NCBI GenBank assembly: GCA_002898315.1
Contig: BEHV01000002.1
Coordinates: 162,729 to 226,728, forward strand
Direction: 5' to 3'
Origin: a bacterium HR19
Lineage (GTDB): Bacteria; Calescibacteriota; Calescibacteriia; Calescibacteriales; Calescibacteriaceae
DNA: 64,000 bases
Part shown: one piece after another, positions 21,478 to 31,826 of the stretch
Layout of the letters: every line of letters begins with the position of its first letter
How positions within the stretch are numbered: the stretch's first letter is position 1
Program-made: the position numbers and the translations under genes
Notes under the pieces: generated by a model
The model's input: only the letters and a program-made list of their open reading frames with translations
Databases searched by the model: none
Told to the model about the DNA's origin: nothing

Positions 21478-21564
21478 GGGTAGGTGGCGGAATGGTAGAC
21501 GCAGGGGACTTAAAATCCCCTGGGGGTGTAAACCCCCGTGCGGGTTCAAGTCCCGCCCTACCCA
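21478..21564 (+). tRNA. tRNA-Leu(UAA)
   Basis: Type II tRNA: acceptor GGGTAGG/CCTACCC, anticodon loop CTTAAAA (anticodon TAA) closed by GGGGA/TCCCC, a long variable arm GGGGGT/ACCCCC, T arm GCGGG-TTCAAGT-CCCGC and discriminator A at 21564. CCA is not encoded. The FIST protein GTG follows at 21575, exactly 10 nt after the discriminator base. Confidence 0.93.
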
Positions 21565-21574
21565 CATATTATTT

Positions 21575-22705
21575 GTGTTTTGTACAACCTCTTTCTCTAA
21601 CATCAAAAGCGAAGAAAAAGCATGCAAGAGCATCATAGATGAAGTTATAAGTAAACTTGAACTACCGAGAAAAAAAGATATGATGCTCATAATTTTCCTC
21701 AGCTCAAAATACAAAGTTGAAAAAGTGATGGATTTTTTTTCAGATATAGATAATATCGGTGTCTCTGTTGGTGGAAATATAACAGATGATGGTGAATTTG
21801 AAGGAGAAGAGTCAGGAATATCTGTTCTCGCAATAGATAAAAGGTATATCCGTTGTCAGAGCTTCTCTTTTTCCGTCCCACAAATGGGATTGAGGGAAGT
21901 AGGTAGAAAAATCGCAGAAAGATTTGCAACAGACATACCATCATCTCTAATTCTTTTTCCAACCCCTTTTTATAACATAGATGAAATTCTGAACGGAATA
22001 AGAGATATAAAAAGTGATAACCTTTTTGTAACCGGAGGAGTAGCGAGTTCTTATGGAGATTCTCCTATCTTTACATTTGAAAATGGCTCGATAGGAAGCT
22101 ATGCGATAAGTGGAGTGTTTTTGGAAGGTGTGGAGGGAAGCGGAAGAGTTGCTCAGAGCTGTAAAGTTGTGAGCAGTAAGTTTGTGGTTACATCATCAGA
22201 AACCAATGTCATAGAGGAGATAGATGGAGAGTTAGCTTCTGATGTGTTGAACTATGTTGCTTCTGAAGTAATTACCGAAGAACCCGATATAGGAAAATTA
22301 CCATGGTTCGTCGGAGTTGAAATTGACAGCAGATTGGAGCTGTTCAGATTCTATCCTATTTTAGATGTCAAAAACGGGTATATATATGTTGGTGGTGAAG
22401 TGGAGGTAGGAAAAAACATAGTGTTTGCGGTTATGTCTCGGAAATATGCAGATGAGATTTCAAAAATGGAGTTTTCATCCATCAGTCCTAATTTATCTTA
22501 CGATTTTTGCATGATTTTCAACTGCCTTGCGAGAGGAAAAAAGTTTTTCGGAAGAAAAAATCACGATATATCAATAGTAAAAAAGAGATTGAAGTGTTCT
22601 ATAGGTGGGTTTTTTTCAAACGGTGAAATAATAACTTTGGGTTCGCCTTTTCTTTTCACATACTCAGCAGTTCTCGCAAATTTCAGAAAAGTTTTCATAT
22701 CGTAA
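21575..22705 (+). CDS. FIST-domain sensor protein
   Basis: 376 residues spanning FIST_N (about 5-190) and FIST_C (about 200-355). The FIST_C core reads VAQSCKVVSSKFVVTSSETN then VIEEIDGELASDVL, matching the family pattern around a conserved A-Q-x-C block. FIST proteins are stand-alone or signal-coupled cytoplasmic sensors thought to bind small ligands such as amino acids. GTG 21575 lies 10 nt after tRNA-Leu with no Shine-Dalgarno sequence, and gives the usual family N-terminus. The two genes that follow encode membrane coiled-coil proteins resembling degenerate chemoreceptor signalling domains, so this may be their ligand-sensing partner. Confidence 0.8.
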   Translation: MFCTTSFSNIKSEEKACKSIIDEVISKLELPRKKDMMLIIFLSSKYKVEKVMDFFSDIDNIGVSVGGNITDDGEFEGEESGISVLAIDKRYIRCQSFSFSVPQMGLREVGRKIAERFATDIPSSLILFPTPFYNIDEILNGIRDIKSDNLFVTGGVASSYGDSPIFTFENGSIGSYAISGVFLEGVEGSGRVAQSCKVVSSKFVVTSSETNVIEEIDGELASDVLNYVASEVITEEPDIGKLPWFVGVEIDSRLELFRFYPILDVKNGYIYVGGEVEVGKNIVFAVMSRKYADEISKMEFSSISPNLSYDFCMIFNCLARGKKFFGRKNHDISIVKKRLKCSIGGFFSNGEIITLGSPFLFTYSAVLANFRKVFIS

Positions 22706-22768
22706 TTGAGCTATATGGTTTTTATTGTAAAATTCGGAAGAAATATTTAAACTAATTTTTATATACTT

Positions 22769-24508
22769 ATGCTTTGGCTCTATGCTATAAGGTTTGTGCT
22801 CAAATTGCTTGCTGTCTCCTTTGTTGATTACTCTAAAATCACGTCTCCTGAATTTTCCTTGCCTTTCCTTTTCATTTCCTCTTTTGAAATATTATTTTCA
22901 CGCAGATTATATTCTCGCAGAGAAAACATATATCTTATCGCAATAGCTTCTTTTCTCATCTATCTTATCACAATATACTCCAAAGCTCATCTTTATCTCC
23001 TTTTGCTTTTCTTATTCATTGATATAAGCTCGGGAATGGCTATTTTTTTGAGATGGGTGGTATTTCTACCTCTGATATTTACGGTTGCGATTTTCTCTCT
23101 CAATATCCCTGTTTTATTTGTGTCTCGCTCGGTGAGTCCAGATAAAGACCTACCCGAAAATTTCAAGGTGATCAAAGGAAGCATGATAGACAGATACACG
23201 GGGAAAAAGGGGAGTGTAAATTTTTTGGGTGGTTTCCTTGTTGGTAATTATCTTTTTTCCACAACATCTCCAGAAGGAGACGAGTTCTTTGTTTTTCTGA
23301 GAACAATTGATAGCGAGAAAGAAATACTCTTTTTTTCTTTTTTGATAATTTTGAGTTTGATTTTCGTACTACTTATTTTGCAAACTGAAAGAAAAGATTT
23401 TTCCGCAGATTCATACTCAAATGGTAAAGCCAAAACAGATAGAAATATATCTGATGAAAAGGGGGTGCCAAGCGAAGATAAAACCGAACTCTTTGCTCTA
23501 TACAAAAAATATTTAGAAGAAGCCATATCAAATCTGAAAGTAAACATTGAAGAAGATAAAGCTTACCTATCATCAATCACCAAAACCTTAGACGATTTCA
23601 AGTTTAAGGTCTCATCAATACTTCTTGAAAGATCATCTGAAACAGATGTAGGGTCATTGATTAAGAATTTCAAATCATCAATATATGATAAAGTTCAGCA
23701 AATATCTAAAAAGATTGATGAGTTTGAAAGAGTCATTGATATTTCTGCATTTGAGAGAATTCAGCTCTCATCTTATGATTTTTATCTCTCTCTTATTACA
23801 CTTAAAGAGAGTATAAGCTCACTCCGTGAAATTTTGCTCCATAAGTTCAGAAATATTGAGTATGTTTTCCACGAGATTTACTCCCCTCTTGGCGGTATAG
23901 AGAATGATATTGGTAAAATAAGATTTTTCAACATACAGAAAATTTTTGATTTTTCCGACATTGAAGAGGTATTTCAGGATTTTTGTGAAATGATTGTAAG
24001 GTTCAAATCAAGTATATCTGCAATTCTTGACAGCATAAAAATTCTCGCTTTCAACTCTTTCGTGATAGCATATAAAATAAAGGACAAGGTGGAAAGCTTT
24101 GAAGTCCTTTCATCAGCGATAGAGATGATAATGGTAAATGTAGAGAATTTTTACTCTGAAGTGCAGGAGCTATGGAATGTGGTAGAGGAAAATCTGGCAA
24201 ACCTTAGGTTTGAAAACCCAGGTATTTCACTTGACGAGCTTGAAAAACAGATTGCCGAAGCGAAGAAAATATTAGACGAAGGAATGCAGGGAATAAGGTC
24301 TTTCGTAAGTTCTCTTGTCCAGTTTACCAATACATTTTTGAACAATTTAAGTTCGGGTATAGAAGATATGACAGAAGGTACCAATTTCTTCTCCAAAGTT
24401 CATATCAAATTTGAACTCCTGAAAGATAGTTTTGATTTGATAAAAGGAGATATTTCTCTGCTAGAAGATTTTGCAAGTAAAAAAAGTGAGGGGGTGGAAG
24501 AAAAATGA
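22769..24508 (+). CDS. Membrane coiled-coil protein, degenerate chemoreceptor-like
   Basis: 579 residues. The N-terminal half-membrane region has several helices (about 5-125), a short extracytoplasmic loop (about 130-185) and a final helix near 190-210. It is followed by about 360 residues of mainly coiled coil. Near 415-445 the sequence ILDSIKILAFNSFVIAYKI followed by FEVLSSAIEM has the shape of a methyl-accepting hairpin tip (I-x-x-I-A-x-N-A-x-I-E-A then F-x-V-V-A-x-E-V), but the CheW-contact residues are lost. This resemblance is read by eye. The stop overlaps the next start (ATGA). Confidence 0.5.
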   Translation: MLWLYAIRFVLKLLAVSFVDYSKITSPEFSLPFLFISSFEILFSRRLYSRRENIYLIAIASFLIYLITIYSKAHLYLLLLFLFIDISSGMAIFLRWVVFLPLIFTVAIFSLNIPVLFVSRSVSPDKDLPENFKVIKGSMIDRYTGKKGSVNFLGGFLVGNYLFSTTSPEGDEFFVFLRTIDSEKEILFFSFLIILSLIFVLLILQTERKDFSADSYSNGKAKTDRNISDEKGVPSEDKTELFALYKKYLEEAISNLKVNIEEDKAYLSSITKTLDDFKFKVSSILLERSSETDVGSLIKNFKSSIYDKVQQISKKIDEFERVIDISAFERIQLSSYDFYLSLITLKESISSLREILLHKFRNIEYVFHEIYSPLGGIENDIGKIRFFNIQKIFDFSDIEEVFQDFCEMIVRFKSSISAILDSIKILAFNSFVIAYKIKDKVESFEVLSSAIEMIMVNVENFYSEVQELWNVVEENLANLRFENPGISLDELEKQIAEAKKILDEGMQGIRSFVSSLVQFTNTFLNNLSSGIEDMTEGTNFFSKVHIKFELLKDSFDLIKGDISLLEDFASKKSEGVEEK

Positions 24509-26127
24509 AATTTGATTCCGCAAAAATAAAGCCAGCTCACAGAGATATATTCAAGGTTATTTTGCTTATTGCAATTTTTATTCTTCTCAATATATCCTTC
24601 GGTAAAGGTATTTTTGATTTTCCCGATCTTTATATTTTGCCTTTTGGATTCATATTGGCACTCTTTATTAGAAAAGAAAGAAAATTATTCTTTTTCATCT
24701 TCTTCACGACATTTCTTCTTCCATATTTTGGTATAAGAACTGCTTTCTCATCGGTTCTATATCATGAGCTATCAGCTATATTGATTCTCTCTCTTTCATC
24801 ACTCTTTATTTCACTTGTCTTATCATTTCTCACCGTAAAATTTCTGCAAGATAAAGGAGAAATTTTTTATAAGATAAGTGAGGTTGAAGACAAAAAGTTA
24901 GAAAAAGAGAAAGAGGTGGAAGTGTATGTGAGAGATGATGAAGATCAGAAAAGAGTAGTAGAAGAATTGAAAGATGAGATAAGATTTTTTGAAACAGAGA
25001 TAGAGAGCGAGGTAAGGAAGAAATTTCCCGAAATTAATTCGGCTGAAGAAGAGCTGGAAAAGAGCATAGAAAGAGAGAAGAAAAGAAGAGAGGAGAGCAT
25101 AGCATCTTTGTATGAGCTGAAAGAGAAGATTTCCTACTTCAAAAAGAGAGTGAGCAAAAGCTACTCTGAACTCTCTTCATTCATAAAAGATGTCAAAGAT
25201 ATTTATACATATACTGTTTCGTTTATCAGAAAAGTTGAGAATTTGAAAGAACTTTTAGATGCTAAAATTCCCGCTAAAACAACAATTTCCCTTATGTCTG
25301 ACAAAAAAATTTTGGAATTGAAAGATATCTTTGAATCTTTCAGCAATTCCTTCAGAGAGCAAGTTGAGAGAATCCTGAAGTTTAATGTGGAAGATATGAT
25401 GGAAAAAATATTCATTTTGCGGACATTGATATACAACTTGAAAGAGCTTTTAAAAAAGCTTGATAGAATAAACTACTTTTCTTATGCTGTTTCACTTAAA
25501 ATATCACAGATCGCAGGCAGTTCAGGAGATAGTGCTGTGAGAAGAACTCTTCTTTCCATAGCCCAAGATATAGATAACCTTTCATTCAAGTCATTAATTA
25601 TATTCAGCGAAGCAGAGGAAAACATTGAAAAACTTGAAAAGAAAACAGGTGTCGTTGTTGAAAGCTTTGATGAAAAAAGCGAAAACCTGAACCAGATGAG
25701 ATCTTCTATTAAAAATGCCATGAACAAGCTGAATGTCATTCTCAAAGACAGAATTCAAAACTTTACTCAGGAAGTGAGTGGTTTTATGAACATATCAGAG
25801 ATAGAAGAAATCAACAGATTTATTTCGAAGAATCAAGAATATATACAGAATATTTTGGAGTTTGGTCAAGATATAGAGAAAAAATTTCTCGTTTTCATAG
25901 ACATGCTTGAAAGAATAGAATCTGATATAGATGAACTCATAGATATATTTATACTATATGAAAATCAGTTTGAGGAAATCATAAGCAGAGAGAAGAAAAT
26001 TCTTGAAGAGTTGTCAGAAATAGAGTTTGGCTGGAAGAAACTTTATTTATCTGATTTCAAGAGCATTTCAGAGCTAAGGAATATAAAAAATATAATATCA
26101 GAATTTGAAAAAGAATTTATGTCTTAA
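24505..26127 (+). CDS. Membrane coiled-coil protein, second pseudo-chemoreceptor
   Basis: 540 residues with about four N-terminal transmembrane helices (15-115), then a long acidic/basic coiled coil. Around 325-355 the segment INYFSYAVSLKISQIAG followed by RRTLLSIAQDIDNLSFKS again resembles the hairpin tip of a methyl-accepting domain with the conserved glutamates and asparagine missing. Its architecture parallels the upstream protein although sequence identity is low by eye, suggesting divergent paralogues or a heteromeric pair. ATG 24505 overlaps the upstream TGA by 4 nt. No cheA or cheW is in the window. Confidence 0.5.
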   Translation: MKFDSAKIKPAHRDIFKVILLIAIFILLNISFGKGIFDFPDLYILPFGFILALFIRKERKLFFFIFFTTFLLPYFGIRTAFSSVLYHELSAILILSLSSLFISLVLSFLTVKFLQDKGEIFYKISEVEDKKLEKEKEVEVYVRDDEDQKRVVEELKDEIRFFETEIESEVRKKFPEINSAEEELEKSIEREKKRREESIASLYELKEKISYFKKRVSKSYSELSSFIKDVKDIYTYTVSFIRKVENLKELLDAKIPAKTTISLMSDKKILELKDIFESFSNSFREQVERILKFNVEDMMEKIFILRTLIYNLKELLKKLDRINYFSYAVSLKISQIAGSSGDSAVRRTLLSIAQDIDNLSFKSLIIFSEAEENIEKLEKKTGVVVESFDEKSENLNQMRSSIKNAMNKLNVILKDRIQNFTQEVSGFMNISEIEEINRFISKNQEYIQNILEFGQDIEKKFLVFIDMLERIESDIDELIDIFILYENQFEEIISREKKILEELSEIEFGWKKLYLSDFKSISELRNIKNIISEFEKEFMS

Positions 26128-26216: not shown

Positions 26217-26717
26217 ATGAATTTGGAAAGCATACTTTTTTTCGTCTTTGCGAGTGCAAGCATAATCTCTTCTGTTCTGGCTATTTCAAGAAGGCAACCT
26301 ATTTTTGGTGTTATGTATCTTTTGGTTCTCGGTTTATCTGTTGCCGGGCTCTTCGCAGTAAAAAAAGCGTTCTTCCTCTCCTTGATTCAGATAATAATAT
26401 ACGTCGGAGCAGTGCTTGTCCTCTTCGTATTTGTCATAGCTATGATGAACCTCTCAAAAGAAGAACTTATATTCGGAAAGATCAGGAGATCAAGATTTTT
26501 CTTCCTTATTCCCTTGATGCTTACTTTCATACTTATACTATCGGTCGTAATATCTGAAAGTACGCATAACATACAGAGGTTTCAGTTCTTCACAGCAAAA
26601 GATGTTTCACTTGCTCTTTATAAAGACCTTATTTTCCATTTTGAATACCTTTCTGTTTTTTTATTATCAGCAATAGTAATAACTGTTTTCATAGGTATGA
26701 GAGGAAAAAAGCTGTGA
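26217..26717 (+). CDS. nuoJ: NADH-quinone oxidoreductase subunit J
   Basis: 166-residue membrane subunit of complex I with five helices. The segment FFLSLIQIIIYVGAVLVLFVFVIAMMN-type third helix (about 56-82) is the NuoJ signature, including the pi-bulge region that couples quinone chemistry to proton pumping. No Shine-Dalgarno sequence precedes ATG 26217. It begins a plus-strand cluster nuoJKLMN. nuoH, nuoI and the peripheral-arm genes are not upstream of it, so this is a split cluster. Confidence 0.92.
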   Translation: MNLESILFFVFASASIISSVLAISRRQPIFGVMYLLVLGLSVAGLFAVKKAFFLSLIQIIIYVGAVLVLFVFVIAMMNLSKEELIFGKIRRSRFFFLIPLMLTFILILSVVISESTHNIQRFQFFTAKDVSLALYKDLIFHFEYLSVFLLSAIVITVFIGMRGKKL

Positions 26718-26781
26718 GAGATGAAATGGAATATGCTGAAAGCAAGAAAATTTTTTAAATAGAGGATATATGGTATAAGAT

Positions 26782-27093
26782 ATGGTGGGAGCAGAAATAA
26801 CTCCTTTTCACTTTATCACGCTTGGCTTAATTCTTTTTTTCATAGGTATATGCGGGATTATTTTGAGAAGGAATATAATCTTTGTTTTCATATCTCTTGA
26901 AGTAGCTACGAATGGGGTTTTCCTCATATTTTTTGGTGCGAGTTTGAAGGTAGGGTACCTCTCGCAAGCTCTTATACTTGTTTTTATGGCTATCGCTGCT
27001 GTTGAGGTTGCTGTTGGACTTGCTTTGGCTATCGCTATCTTCAGAACTTCAAAAACGGTTAATGTAGATGAAGTATCTCAACTTAAAGGTTAA
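26782..27093 (+). CDS. nuoK: NADH-quinone oxidoreductase subunit K
   Basis: 103-residue subunit with three transmembrane helices. The two intramembrane glutamates required for proton translocation in E. coli NuoK are visible as Glu40 (ISLEVATNG) and Glu75 (AAVEVAVGLA). It lies 64 nt after nuoJ and 24 nt before nuoL. Upstream sequence is AT-rich without a close ribosome-binding site. Confidence 0.93.
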   Translation: MVGAEITPFHFITLGLILFFIGICGIILRRNIIFVFISLEVATNGVFLIFFGASLKVGYLSQALILVFMAIAAVEVAVGLALAIAIFRTSKTVNVDEVSQLKG

Positions 27094-27117
27094 TAAAAAT
27101 GAGGAGGTGAGCAGGTT

Positions 27118-28947
27118 ATGGAAAGCTTATCTGCTATACTTGTAGTATTTTTGCCTCTTGCGGGAACACTTATAAATCTTCTCCTACTTTCTTACGAAAT
27201 TCTTACGAAAAAAGAAGATGAACACCTCAACCCCATCAAAATCATCTCAGGAATAGTATCCTGCCTTGCGGTCGCAGTACCTTTCTTGCTCTCCCTCTAT
27301 ATCTTCGGAAAAGAAACTATAAGAATTGAATTTTTCAACTGGATTCCTCTTGGTGGATATAAAATAACATTTTCAGCACTTTTTGATAATCTTTCAAAAG
27401 TATCGCTCCTTTACATAACAGGAGTTTCATCACTGATACATATATACTCGGTAGGTTATATGTCTCACGACAGGGGCTTTATAAGATACTTTATGCTCCT
27501 CAATCTTTTCGTTTTCTTCATGATTCAAATCGTTGTCTCTGAAAACCTTGTCCAGATCTTTTTAGGGTGGGAAGGTGTTGGATTCTGCTCATATGCACTT
27601 ATAGGATTTTGGTATTCTGGGTATGAGAACGCAAGAGCCGGTTTCAAAGCATTCATAGTAAACAGAGTGGGGGACTTTGGTTTCTTGGTCGGAATTGCCC
27701 TCTTTCTGATATACACGGGGGGAGTAGATTACTCACTTGTGAAGAATCTGCCTTCTGATAAGGTTTTTCTTGTTGCTTTAGCTCTCTCTATGGGGGCGAT
27801 GGGTAAAAGCGCTCAGGGACCGTTCTGGCTGTGGCTCCCGGATGCTATGAGAGGTCCTACTCCTGTTTCTGCTCTTATACACGCCGCTACGATGGTGACT
27901 GCTGGTGTATATATGGTAGTGAGGTTGAAAGACCTGTTCTCGTTCCCGTCAGGTGCTTCCGAGTTTGTGTTCTGGGTGGGAGTTATTACATCAATACTTA
28001 TGGGGTTTTTCGGAATCTTTGAAAGAGATATAAAAAGAATTCTTGCTTTCTCAACTTTGTCTCAACTCGGGCTTATGTTCGCAGGTGCGGGAACTTCTTT
28101 CAAATATACCGGAATGTTTCATGTATTTGAACACAGCTTCTTCAAGGCTTCACTCTTCCTTATATCTGGAATACTTATGCACGAATTTGAAAACGAAACA
28201 GATATTTATAAACTCAAAGAGAAAAAACCACTTGAAAAAGGTATGACTCTCTCTGCTCTCGGTTTTCTCATAGGAGCCCTCGCTATGAGCGGTGTTTTCC
28301 CGCTATCTGGATACTGGTCAAAAGAATCTATAATTCAAGCGGTCTCACACGATTTCGGAACTACTGGCTCAATACTCATGCTCATCGCAAGCTTTGTCAC
28401 TCCACTTTATATGTTCAGAGCATACTTTGTTGTGTTTGGAAATCAGAAATTCAAAATTTCTTTCTCACCATCGCACGAAGGTGGATACCTTATGTTTGTA
28501 CCTGTTCTTGTTCTGGTTATCCTCAGCGTTATCGGGGGCGTATTTGATGTCGGGCACTGGCTCGGAAAAGAATACGGATACCAAGAACATATACACGGAG
28601 GAGTTTCACCGGTTGTCGTGCATATTACTGTTTTTCTTGCTGTTTTCATCTCATATATTATATGGGGCAGAGGGAAAGAAGTTCCCGAAAGCGGAGTAGG
28701 AAAAATTCTCTGGAGGAAGCTTTATCTTAACGAAATTGAAGAATACTCGTTCATAGGCGGAGCCGTCGCACTTATGAAACTCATGTACTCCTTCGCAGAA
28801 AGAATAATTATAGAGGGTTTTTATCTTTTTCTATCTGCTCTGGCAAGAGTTGTTGGTTATTTGATCGCTTCCGCTCACGGAGGGGAACCGGTAAGAATAT
28901 TATTTCTGATTATCCTTGGAATAACCTTTGTGCTTTTTATTGTATAG
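27118..28947 (+). CDS. nuoL: NADH-quinone oxidoreductase subunit L
   Basis: 609-residue antiporter-like proton-pumping subunit at the distal end of the complex I membrane arm. The core helices carry GWEGVGFCSYALIGFWY (about 149-165) and the lysine/histidine pump residues around ARAGFKAFIVNRVGDFGF and PLSGYWSKE. The C-terminal region includes the amphipathic lateral helix and anchoring helix, giving the usual length. A strong ribosome-binding site GAGGAGGTGA precedes ATG 27118. Confidence 0.95.
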   Translation: MESLSAILVVFLPLAGTLINLLLLSYEILTKKEDEHLNPIKIISGIVSCLAVAVPFLLSLYIFGKETIRIEFFNWIPLGGYKITFSALFDNLSKVSLLYITGVSSLIHIYSVGYMSHDRGFIRYFMLLNLFVFFMIQIVVSENLVQIFLGWEGVGFCSYALIGFWYSGYENARAGFKAFIVNRVGDFGFLVGIALFLIYTGGVDYSLVKNLPSDKVFLVALALSMGAMGKSAQGPFWLWLPDAMRGPTPVSALIHAATMVTAGVYMVVRLKDLFSFPSGASEFVFWVGVITSILMGFFGIFERDIKRILAFSTLSQLGLMFAGAGTSFKYTGMFHVFEHSFFKASLFLISGILMHEFENETDIYKLKEKKPLEKGMTLSALGFLIGALAMSGVFPLSGYWSKESIIQAVSHDFGTTGSILMLIASFVTPLYMFRAYFVVFGNQKFKISFSPSHEGGYLMFVPVLVLVILSVIGGVFDVGHWLGKEYGYQEHIHGGVSPVVVHITVFLAVFISYIIWGRGKEVPESGVGKILWRKLYLNEIEEYSFIGGAVALMKLMYSFAERIIIEGFYLFLSALARVVGYLIASAHGGEPVRILFLIILGITFVLFIV

Positions 28948-29004
28948 CTTATGACCTGGTTTTATAAAGTATGTGTTGAAAATTGTGGGGAGGAAAATTA
29001 GAGT

Positions 29005-30456
29005 ATGGATGCGGTAAAGATGACTTTGATTTTTCCTTACCTTGGTTTTTTCCTCTCGCTTTTTATAAGGTCAGTATATATCGGGTTTTTTTTCTCCCTT
29101 GCGACTTTGATCTCCTCTCTTTTTATAAATGTAGGTTATTCTGATGAGATACTTATAGCGGAGAAAATAGGTTTTTCAATTTCGCTATATGTTGATGGCT
29201 TGAATATTTTGCTGATATGGCTGACAACAGGGCTTTTTTTTCTTGTTTTTCTCTATGCGATAGTTGAAAAGAGAGAAAGAAAAGATGAATACACGTTTTT
29301 GTTTTTACTTCTTGAATCACTTCTCATACCTTCTTTCATGACAAAAAATGTTCTCGTATTTTACTTTTTCTTTGACGCCACTTTAATCCCGATGTTCTTC
29401 ATAATAGGGATATGGGGGACTGGGAGAAAAGTTTATTCTGCTTACAAGTTTTTACTTTTCACATTCTTCGGAAGTGTTCTCTTTCTTGTTTCAATAATAT
29501 ACCTTGGAATTGAGTTTTTTTCTTCTGAGGGGAGATTATCTTTTGAACTTGAAGATCTGATAAAGGTTGCTGGTCAGCTTGATTTTCAAACCAAAGCTCT
29601 TCTTTTTCTTGGGTTTTTCCTGGCTTTTGCGGTAAAAATTCCTCTGATGCCTGTTCATGTGTGGCTTCCTGACGCTCACACAGAAGCACCAACAGGTGGT
29701 AGTGTGATACTTGCAGGAATTTTGCTGAAACTCGGCTCTTACGGATTTTTGAGATTTGCTCTTCCACTCTTTCCTGATGTCGTAAAAGAATACTGGCAAA
29801 TCATAGCGGTAATATCTCTTGCAGGTATAATTTTAGGTGCTGTTTTAGCGTTATCTCAGGAGGATATGAAGCGACTCATAGCTTACTCCTCGGTATCGCA
29901 TATGGGGTACATTACTCTTGGTTCCGTTGCTTTTTCAGGAGACAAGATAACATATGAGGGCTTACAGGGGGCTGTTTTGCAGATGGTAAATCACGGTATA
30001 GCAACAGGAGCTCTCTTTTTCATCGTGGGAATGATATACGAAAGAACTCATACGAGAATGATAAGAGATTACAGCGGAATTGCGAGAAAAGTGCCAATAT
30101 TTACTTTCTTCTTCTTCATCTTCGCTTTATCATCTATCGGATTCCCTTCAACAGGTGGATTTATAGGAGAGCTTCTTGTGATATTTTCTGCTATGAGGTC
30201 AAACATAATTTTCGGGGTGCTCGTAGCTGCGGGAGCAATATTTTCTGCTGGATACCTCCTTTACCTTATTCTGCGAGTGTTTTTCGGGGCTGAAAAGAGC
30301 GATATAAATAACCATATAAAAGATACAAGTTTTGTGGAGTTTTTAACTCTTGTTCCGCTTGCGATCTTTGTGTTCATCATAGGAATTTTTCCCGGATACT
30401 TTATGAAAATTATAGACGGAGGTGTTGAGTTTGTATGGAAACATCTTTTACAATAA
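29005..30456 (+). CDS. nuoM: NADH-quinone oxidoreductase subunit M
   Basis: 483-residue antiporter-like subunit with about 14 helices. The motif PLMPVHVWLPDAHTEAPTGG with the following ILLKLGSYG (about 213-247) is diagnostic of NuoM. It follows nuoL after 57 nt with a GGGGAGG site about 11 nt before the ATG. Its last 22 nt overlap nuoN, so the two are translationally coupled. Confidence 0.95.
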   Translation: MDAVKMTLIFPYLGFFLSLFIRSVYIGFFFSLATLISSLFINVGYSDEILIAEKIGFSISLYVDGLNILLIWLTTGLFFLVFLYAIVEKRERKDEYTFLFLLLESLLIPSFMTKNVLVFYFFFDATLIPMFFIIGIWGTGRKVYSAYKFLLFTFFGSVLFLVSIIYLGIEFFSSEGRLSFELEDLIKVAGQLDFQTKALLFLGFFLAFAVKIPLMPVHVWLPDAHTEAPTGGSVILAGILLKLGSYGFLRFALPLFPDVVKEYWQIIAVISLAGIILGAVLALSQEDMKRLIAYSSVSHMGYITLGSVAFSGDKITYEGLQGAVLQMVNHGIATGALFFIVGMIYERTHTRMIRDYSGIARKVPIFTFFFFIFALSSIGFPSTGGFIGELLVIFSAMRSNIIFGVLVAAGAIFSAGYLLYLILRVFFGAEKSDINNHIKDTSFVEFLTLVPLAIFVFIIGIFPGYFMKIIDGGVEFVWKHLLQ

Positions 30457-31826
30457 GAGATTTGATAGAGGATTGGGGAGCCTTCGTTCTCTCCCTGATT
30501 CTGGGTAGCTTGGGACTTATATTGGGTAGGTTGTTGAAGAAGAACTTAGTTTCTATGCTTTTTAACCTTTTTGCTCTGCTAATCCTTCTTATCTTTTCTA
30601 TACTTTATAGCGGAGATGGGAATGAGGTATTTGGGATTTTTGAGTTTGATAGATTTTTCTTTAACTCTTGTTTTTGGCTTTCTGTTTTTGGGATAATAAC
30701 TCTTTTCGTATCGTTTCAGGAGGTATCGTCAAAAGGTGAGGTTTTTCCTGAAAACTTCTTTTTTGTTCTTCTTTCCTCGCTGGGTGCGATTTTGATGACA
30801 AGTTCAAAAGATTTTCTCTCACTTTTTATCTCAAAAGAGCTGATGTCTTTCAATATATATGCGATGATATACTTTATCAGGGATAGGTATGGAGTAGAGT
30901 CGGCTTTCAAGTATTTTATATCAAGCGCTCTGCTATCTTTGTTTTATCTTCTTGGATTTTCCTTCTTTATCATATCAAACGAAACGATTTTCATATCAAA
31001 TCCAAAGACAATTCTTGGAATTTTAGGAGTTTATCTTGTTCTGTTTGACCTTTTTTTCAAATCTGGTTCTGCTCCCTTTCATTTTTGGGTTCCTGATGTG
31101 TATCAGGGGGCTCCTTCTTCCACTGTTGTATTTGCCGGTTCGGTTGTGAAGTTTGCCTCTTTTCTCGCCATAATGCGCATCTTTGACTTTACAGGTCAAA
31201 ACTACCAACACCTTTTAGAGATAATCGTTGTTTTATCTGTTATCATAGGTTCTTTTGGGGGACTTGTTCAGAAGGAGCTGAAAAGGCTTCTTGCGTACTC
31301 ATCAATAGCCCACTCAGGTTTTATCTCTCTTTTGCTTTTCGGAACGGGGAACAAAGATTTTAAGGAGTTTCTGCTATTTTATCTTGCGACTTATGGGATT
31401 TCATTTGCAGGTGCTTTTTCTGTAATCTCACTTTTCAAAAACACTCTTTTATATCTTGAAGATATTCGTGGGTTCTCTTCTTCTCACAGATTTTTCTCTC
31501 TTCTCCTATCTGTTTTTCTTCTCACATTTACGGGACTACCTCTTCTTTCAGGTTTCCCATCAAAATACTTTGCGTTCTTCACCGCTTTATCATCTAAAGA
31601 ATTTATACCTGTCATAATCTCGGCAATAGGGAGCTTAATATCACTATACTTTTACTTTATCCCTCTTGTGAGAACCTTTATGGAAAGCGCGGAAAATAAA
31701 ATTTATTTCAACATCAATACTTTTATAGGACTGATTCTGATGATTTTAGCTTTCTTATCTTTTGTTTTCGGAGTGTATCCCGATTTATTCTTTATTATGA
31801 TTCAAAAAATTCCTTTATCTTCTTGA
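30435..31826 (+). CDS. nuoN: NADH-quinone oxidoreductase subunit N
   Basis: 463-residue antiporter-like subunit. The stretch KSGSAPFHFWVPDVYQGAPS with the following VVFAGSVVKFAS (about 208-240) is diagnostic, and the central LKRLLAYSSIAHSGF motif is intact. The start lies inside nuoM (22-nt overlap). It ends the cluster, and its last 32 nt overlap the 3' end of the opposing uracil-DNA glycosylase gene. Complex I proton pumping needs the missing NuoA-I subunits, which must be encoded elsewhere. Confidence 0.94.
   Translation: METSFTIRDLIEDWGAFVLSLILGSLGLILGRLLKKNLVSMLFNLFALLILLIFSILYSGDGNEVFGIFEFDRFFFNSCFWLSVFGIITLFVSFQEVSSKGEVFPENFFFVLLSSLGAILMTSSKDFLSLFISKELMSFNIYAMIYFIRDRYGVESAFKYFISSALLSLFYLLGFSFFIISNETIFISNPKTILGILGVYLVLFDLFFKSGSAPFHFWVPDVYQGAPSSTVVFAGSVVKFASFLAIMRIFDFTGQNYQHLLEIIVVLSVIIGSFGGLVQKELKRLLAYSSIAHSGFISLLLFGTGNKDFKEFLLFYLATYGISFAGAFSVISLFKNTLLYLEDIRGFSSSHRFFSLLLSVFLLTFTGLPLLSGFPSKYFAFFTALSSKEFIPVIISAIGSLISLYFYFIPLVRTFMESAENKIYFNINTFIGLILMILAFLSFVFGVYPDLFFIMIQKIPLSS

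Follow-up and report, generated by a model that had tools for sequence, protein, structure and literature searches.

A translationally coupled pair of membrane proteins in the Calescibacterota, the first with a chemoreceptor-type hairpin tip that has lost many of the coupling residues

Few signalling proteins are understood as well as chemoreceptors, and the tip of their hairpin is nearly invariant because it has to build receptor trimers and to bind both CheA and CheW. Here we describe two adjacent genes from Candidatus Calescibacterium, a member of the Calescibacterota (also called Calescamantes), a little-known group of hot-spring bacteria, the first of which encodes a protein with a strongly altered version of this tip. 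They lie in a stretch of 64,000 nucleotides (bacterium HR19, contig BEHV01000002.1, positions 162,729 to 226,728), here referred to as the window. The first gene (22769..24508, plus strand) encodes P0002, a protein of 579 residues, and the second (24505..26127, plus strand) encodes P0003, a protein of 540 residues; the start codon of the second overlaps the stop codon of the first in the sequence ATGA (24505..24508, plus strand). The original prediction, made from the letters alone, had placed a tRNA-Leu, a FIST ligand sensor and two pseudo-chemoreceptors at this locus in one unit. The two coiled-coil membrane proteins, with about six and four transmembrane (TM) segments respectively, and their ATGA overlap were described correctly; the composition of the unit and the nature of the second protein have to be revised, as detailed below.

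Both genes were called from their open reading frames, hydropathy profiles and orthologues, and P0002 in addition from its homology to methyl-accepting chemotaxis proteins (MCPs). Our family sample comprises five Calescibacterota genomes (G000–G004, of which G000 is the source genome and G002 its sister species); no nearer relatives were present among the genomes searched, the profiles of P0002 and P0003 are accordingly built on five sequences each, and the genomes are incomplete drafts of about 82–86% completeness. Orthologues of P0002 and P0003 adjoin one another in all five; the four-base ATGA overlap is found in G000, G001, G002 and G004, and G003 has a short gap. The distant orthologues share 21–27% identity and only short conserved blocks. 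Compared with the sister species, the ratios of non-synonymous to synonymous substitution (dN/dS) are 0.145 for P0002 and 0.154 for P0003, comparable to those of the neighbouring genes trpF and pgeF, which argues that both are functional genes under purifying selection; the nuo genes lie below these values, at 0.055–0.076. Only four loci emerged from a pattern scan across 84,980 genomes, two of them from genomes named Candidatus Calescibacterium. Searches of Pfam, NCBIfam and PHROGs assigned neither protein to a family and gave weak coiled-coil matches only (ZorA_3 at 0.023, tape-measure proteins), no relatives were found in viral contigs, and a promoter scan at the locus performed no better than shuffled sequence.

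P0002 has about six TM segments by hydropathy, clearest in the orthologues, with an extracytoplasmic loop of some 70 residues between TM5 and TM6, followed by a long helical cytoplasmic part. Within the latter, residues 416–456 (24014..24136, plus strand) form a degenerate MCP-type hairpin tip. Hidden Markov model (HMM) comparison of residues 380–480 with a profile built from 32 MCPs of diverse genomes, the check proposed in the original prediction, gives a score of 26.1 (P 0.00099), a value reached by none of 200 column shuffles (maximum 22.1), the reversed MCP profile scoring 13.7. When the full-length family is used, the best alignment is gapless and places residues 409–451 on the MCP tip (P 0.0034). 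When the whole PDB was searched with the profile, Thermotoga maritima MCPs took the first three places, with the tip in register (E 4.2e-6 to 8.5e-6), and the next match stood at 0.003. Furthermore, in a search of 290 genomes 23 of the 26 examined matches outside the family are MCPs in which N429 of P0002 falls on the tip asparagine (N381 in Tsr numbering) and F444 on the tip phenylalanine (F396). The P0003 family, of similar composition and depth and put through the same search, reaches 2.7e-7 in one genome; its alignments are scattered over coiled-coil arms, with its own tip spanned by none of them. It is therefore the tip register and not the E-value that carries the homology claim, because coiled coils inflate E-values. 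Taken together, these alignments support the derivation of P0002 from a chemoreceptor.

The tip and a second block (residues 365–379) are the most conserved regions of P0002 as judged by window conservation, which suggests specific binding. No match of P0002 to Pfam PF00015 that met the cut-off was reported, and in the alignments shown an MCP-profile hmmsearch on the single P0002 and P0003 proteins covered coiled-coil arms and no tip. In the same genome an MCE/MlaD-like protein (L006 1066-2391, contig C2) scores 20 bits against MCPsignal, apparently through nothing but its coiled coil, so that weak PF00015 matches call for care.

In comparison with canonical receptors (PF00015; Tsr and the T. 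maritima MCPs 2ch7 and 3ja6), P0002 shares the long helical arms behind the TM segments and a hairpin tip in exact register that retains the tip asparagine and phenylalanine. It differs in many of the residues that couple receptors to the kinase. Residues Q374, N376, E385, R388, G390, G393 and G395 (numbered as in Tsr) are near-invariant in MCPs; E385 and R388' make up an ionic lock between the dimers of a receptor trimer (PMC8144572), and the tip also bears the determinants for CheA and CheW (PMC4692393). Among the five P0002 orthologues Q374 is replaced by S or N, N376 by K, G, D or H, E385 by I, L or R, and R388 by K, and the GxG turn glycines G390, G393 and G395 are mostly lost. N381 (5/5), F396 (4/5) and the hydrophobic tip positions are kept. 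The profile alignments and this residue table thus uphold the description of the segment as shaped like an MCP hairpin without its conserved coupling residues. A scan of P0002 for the strict methylation consensus found no site, a weak test given that only three of five MCPs from its own genome show that consensus. Two further differences from MCPs are the constant, translationally coupled partner gene and the N-terminus of six TM segments. As a separate observation, the source genome also encodes a single MCP-like protein of 712 residues (L005 157-2295, contig C8), located between dnaE-like and outer-membrane-protein-like genes, that possesses a HAMP domain and a tip (NAHIVASHEKGESGKEF) from which E385 and R388 have likewise been lost.

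The constant partner, P0003, has four TM segments by hydropathy and then a long predicted helical hairpin. Its most conserved segment comprises residues 327–362 (YAVSLKISQIAGSSGDSAVRRTLLSIAQDIDNLSFK; 25483..25590, plus strand), identified by alignment conservation, with a turn at residues 340–342 in the structural model. Two candidate relationships of P0003 were tried and rejected. As a second MCP it was compared by HMM–HMM alignment with the general MCP profile and both profiles of the paired receptors described below, with shuffles as controls, and gave no signal. Homology between P0002 and P0003, with the tips and the N-termini also compared on their own, yielded only coiled-coil or insignificant alignments. 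PDB matches of P0003 to MCPs are out of tip register. The AlphaFold 2 (AF2) model of P0003 leads Foldseek to list chemoreceptors first (E 5e-6) with low TM-scores; the top rows of VIA-align are unrelated helical bundles.

The closest relatives of the P0002 tip reside in two other small phyla. Two matches outside the family proved to be the first genes of tandem pairs that themselves have a four-base ATGA overlap, P0004/P0005 (G171) and P0006/P0007 (G053). We term these the B pairs, with families B1 and B2 for the products of their first and second genes, and P0002/P0003 the A pair. Over 49 gapless columns the P0002 tip matches the B1 family at 91% (P 1.1e-6), as opposed to 41% for general MCPs, and a pairwise BLAST alignment of P0002 and P0004 is in register, at 6e-5. 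P0004 is conserved in eight of the nine genomes of its small phylum; the phylum of G053 consists of a single genome. The overlap recurs in six of six further B-pair loci read, with recO-like and M50 protease genes downstream wherever the contig reaches. Both types of pair consist of adjacent multi-TM genes with no che genes adjoining, and the loss of E385 and R388 in the P0002 tip is shared by B1, according to the residue table, and, by eye, by the tips of B2. In contrast to the A pair, both partners of the B pairs are recognisable MCP homologues (all four proteins match MCPsignal, at 6e-16 to 2.7e-8, with P0007 falling slightly short of the cut-off) and B1 and B2 are full-length paralogues (99.6%); the proteins are also larger, at about 850 residues, with a bigger extracytoplasmic domain. 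As the best counterparts of the P0002 tip are encoded by the leading genes of coupled pairs from two further phyla, the paired arrangement may recur. Literature searches, with most subscription journals outside their coverage, returned no description of such coupled MCP-like pairs. Divergent multi-TM pairs of MCP-like genes with ATGA overlaps were read in these two phyla at L157 943-6014, L158 1592-6726 and L172–L177.

On these grounds we propose, with about an even chance of being right, that P0002 and P0003 constitute a translationally coupled and probably heteromeric membrane device which derives from a chemoreceptor and has been decoupled from the standard kinase complex. Translational coupling would ensure that the two proteins are made in equal amounts, and they may assemble into a heteromeric rod resembling the cytoplasmic bundle of chemoreceptors, with both conserved tips at its far end. 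The membrane part would sense a signal and thereby change the bundle, and the altered tips would have as their target something other than the canonical core complex of CheA and CheW. The heteromeric scaffold suggested in the original prediction would fit the conserved ATGA coupling. Its further suggestion that CheA has dropped out of use accords with E385, R388, Q374, N376 and the GxG glycines having been lost; it is an inference from these changes, and the genome does encode CheW-domain, CheA-type and CheR proteins. Tls of Escherichia coli B2 strains, a chemoreceptor-like regulator that sequesters FlhDC and represses flagellar genes, sets a precedent for receptor-like proteins whose output is not the kinase (PMC12623472). 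We liken the two by description only: like the proposed P0002, Tls is receptor-like and does not feed into the chemotaxis kinase, and unlike the pair it is a single gene, with no paired partner described in the available part of that source (PMC12623472).

Several results weigh against this proposal. When residues 290–390 of P0003 are compared with the MCP profile the score is 14.7, which 12 of 200 column shuffles match, and its tip aligns with those of B1, B2 and the MCPs no better than column shuffles do; the chemotaxis-derived character claimed for both proteins is supported for P0002, by profile, PDB search and register in 23 of 26 matches, and not for P0003, which scores at shuffle level. 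A heteromer by paralogy is at most a possibility, because P0003 shows no sequence link to MCPs. The P0003 control reaches 2.6e-5 in the PDB profile search, coiled coils inflating such E-values, and the P0002 profile has a depth of five sequences only. The AF2 models are poor: that of P0002 (mean predicted local distance difference test score, pLDDT, 46) consists of helices with a break at residues 437–444, the expected position of the turn, and has no significant Foldseek matches, and that of P0003 has a pLDDT of 60. No relationship between the TM domains of the A pair and those of the B pairs could be detected, and the pairing may therefore be convergent. Finally, a residual coupling of P0002 to arrays is possible, given that all five family genomes encode CheW-domain, long CheA-type and CheR proteins as well as true MCPs.

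The last point leads to the main rival explanation, which we deem unlikely but worth serious attention, namely that P0002, together with P0003, is a highly diverged accessory or decoy receptor still associated with canonical CheA/CheW arrays. It remains the main rival because these Che proteins and true MCPs are present in every family genome and Calescamantes carry flagellar genes (PMC4791363); the retention of N381, F396 and the hydrophobic tip positions also speaks in its favour. However, all seven coupling and turn positions are altered in nearly all orthologues, the strict methylation consensus is missing (with the weakness of that test noted above), and the pair is not encoded with che genes.

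We regard as quite improbable a second rival, in which the pair forms a coiled-coil membrane scaffold, such as an envelope or cytoskeletal tether, that has retained an MCP-like tip and transmits no signal. The fast divergence of the two proteins, in which only short blocks are conserved although the genes are always present, would suit such a role, as would the lack of a conserved signalling gene adjoining the pair; on the other hand, the tip and the block at 365–379 are the most conserved parts of P0002, suggestive of specific binding, and the layout of six TM segments with an extracytoplasmic loop is sensor-like. Returning to the proposed decoupled receptor pair, a lineage-wide pair whose tip lacks the coupling residues yet is under purifying selection raises the question of what other uses the receptor hairpin may have been put to. 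More tentatively, and with distinctly less confidence than doubt, the coupled chemoreceptor-derived pairs without the E385–R388 lock may represent a distinct CheA-independent class of heteromeric receptors in several small phyla, of which the Calescibacterota pair would be the most derived; if true, the occurrence of similar pairs in two further phyla would raise the finding from an oddity to a class of receptors.

The FIST protein was the third member of the device as originally predicted, and its gene call is sound: the 376-residue product of 21575..22705 (plus strand) is a solo FIST–FIST_C protein with matches above the Pfam cut-offs (FIST 3.5e-18, FIST_C 3.9e-9), the same domains as in NosP and CdpA (PMC8846402). 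A three-gene device, in which FIST senses a ligand and controls both membrane proteins, draws on its position 63 bases upstream of the pair on the same strand in G000, similarly nearby in G002, and on the fact that solo FIST proteins such as NosP partner kinases (PMC8846402). This we consider very improbable. The FIST gene adjoins the pair in these two sister species only, and the other three family genomes have the pair without FIST nearby: in G001 (Ca. Calescibacterium nevadense) and G004 it is located on a contig other than that of the pair, beside a GGDEF gene and a GMC oxidoreductase gene respectively, and G003 yielded no FIST gene, an absence that is weak on its own because the genomes are only about 82–86% complete. 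No neighbour gene shared across the family genomes was found, including no signalling gene. The search for the neighbourhood in other genomes thus recovered the two-gene pair throughout the family and the three-gene set in the two sister species alone; the unit therefore consists of two genes, FIST is an incidental neighbour outside the module, and neither control by FIST nor a unit with the tRNA is borne out. In G001 the FIST gene lies just downstream of the GGDEF gene on the same strand (L030 7893-9827, contig C42), which suggests a possible link to cyclic di-GMP in that genome.

The best-conserved block of P0002, residues 365–379 (YVFHEIYSPLGGIEN; 23861..23905, plus strand), has an H-box-like motif. 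The reading of P0002 as a phosphotransfer protein derived from a histidine kinase, in which FHEIYSPLGG would be the H-box, merits scarcely any credence, for although hhalign matches the region to the HisKA profile over 22 columns (P 3.6e-4, 0/200 shuffles for the region alone), the candidate histidine H368 is tyrosine in G003, Pfam searches gave no HATPase match in P0002, and when the PDB was searched with a profile of this region, coiled coils of the GCN4 type came up, with no histidine kinase among the matches down to E 10.

Of the remaining features at the locus, the tRNA-Leu (TAA) was found by ARAGORN where it had been called (21478-21565, plus strand) and is likewise a neighbour outside the module. 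It ends 10 bases 5' of the GTG start of FIST, whose reading frame is open back through the tRNA. On the other side, directly after P0003, the window contains Complex I genes (nuoJ- to nuoN-like, 26217-31826), a placement seen in G000 and G002 only.

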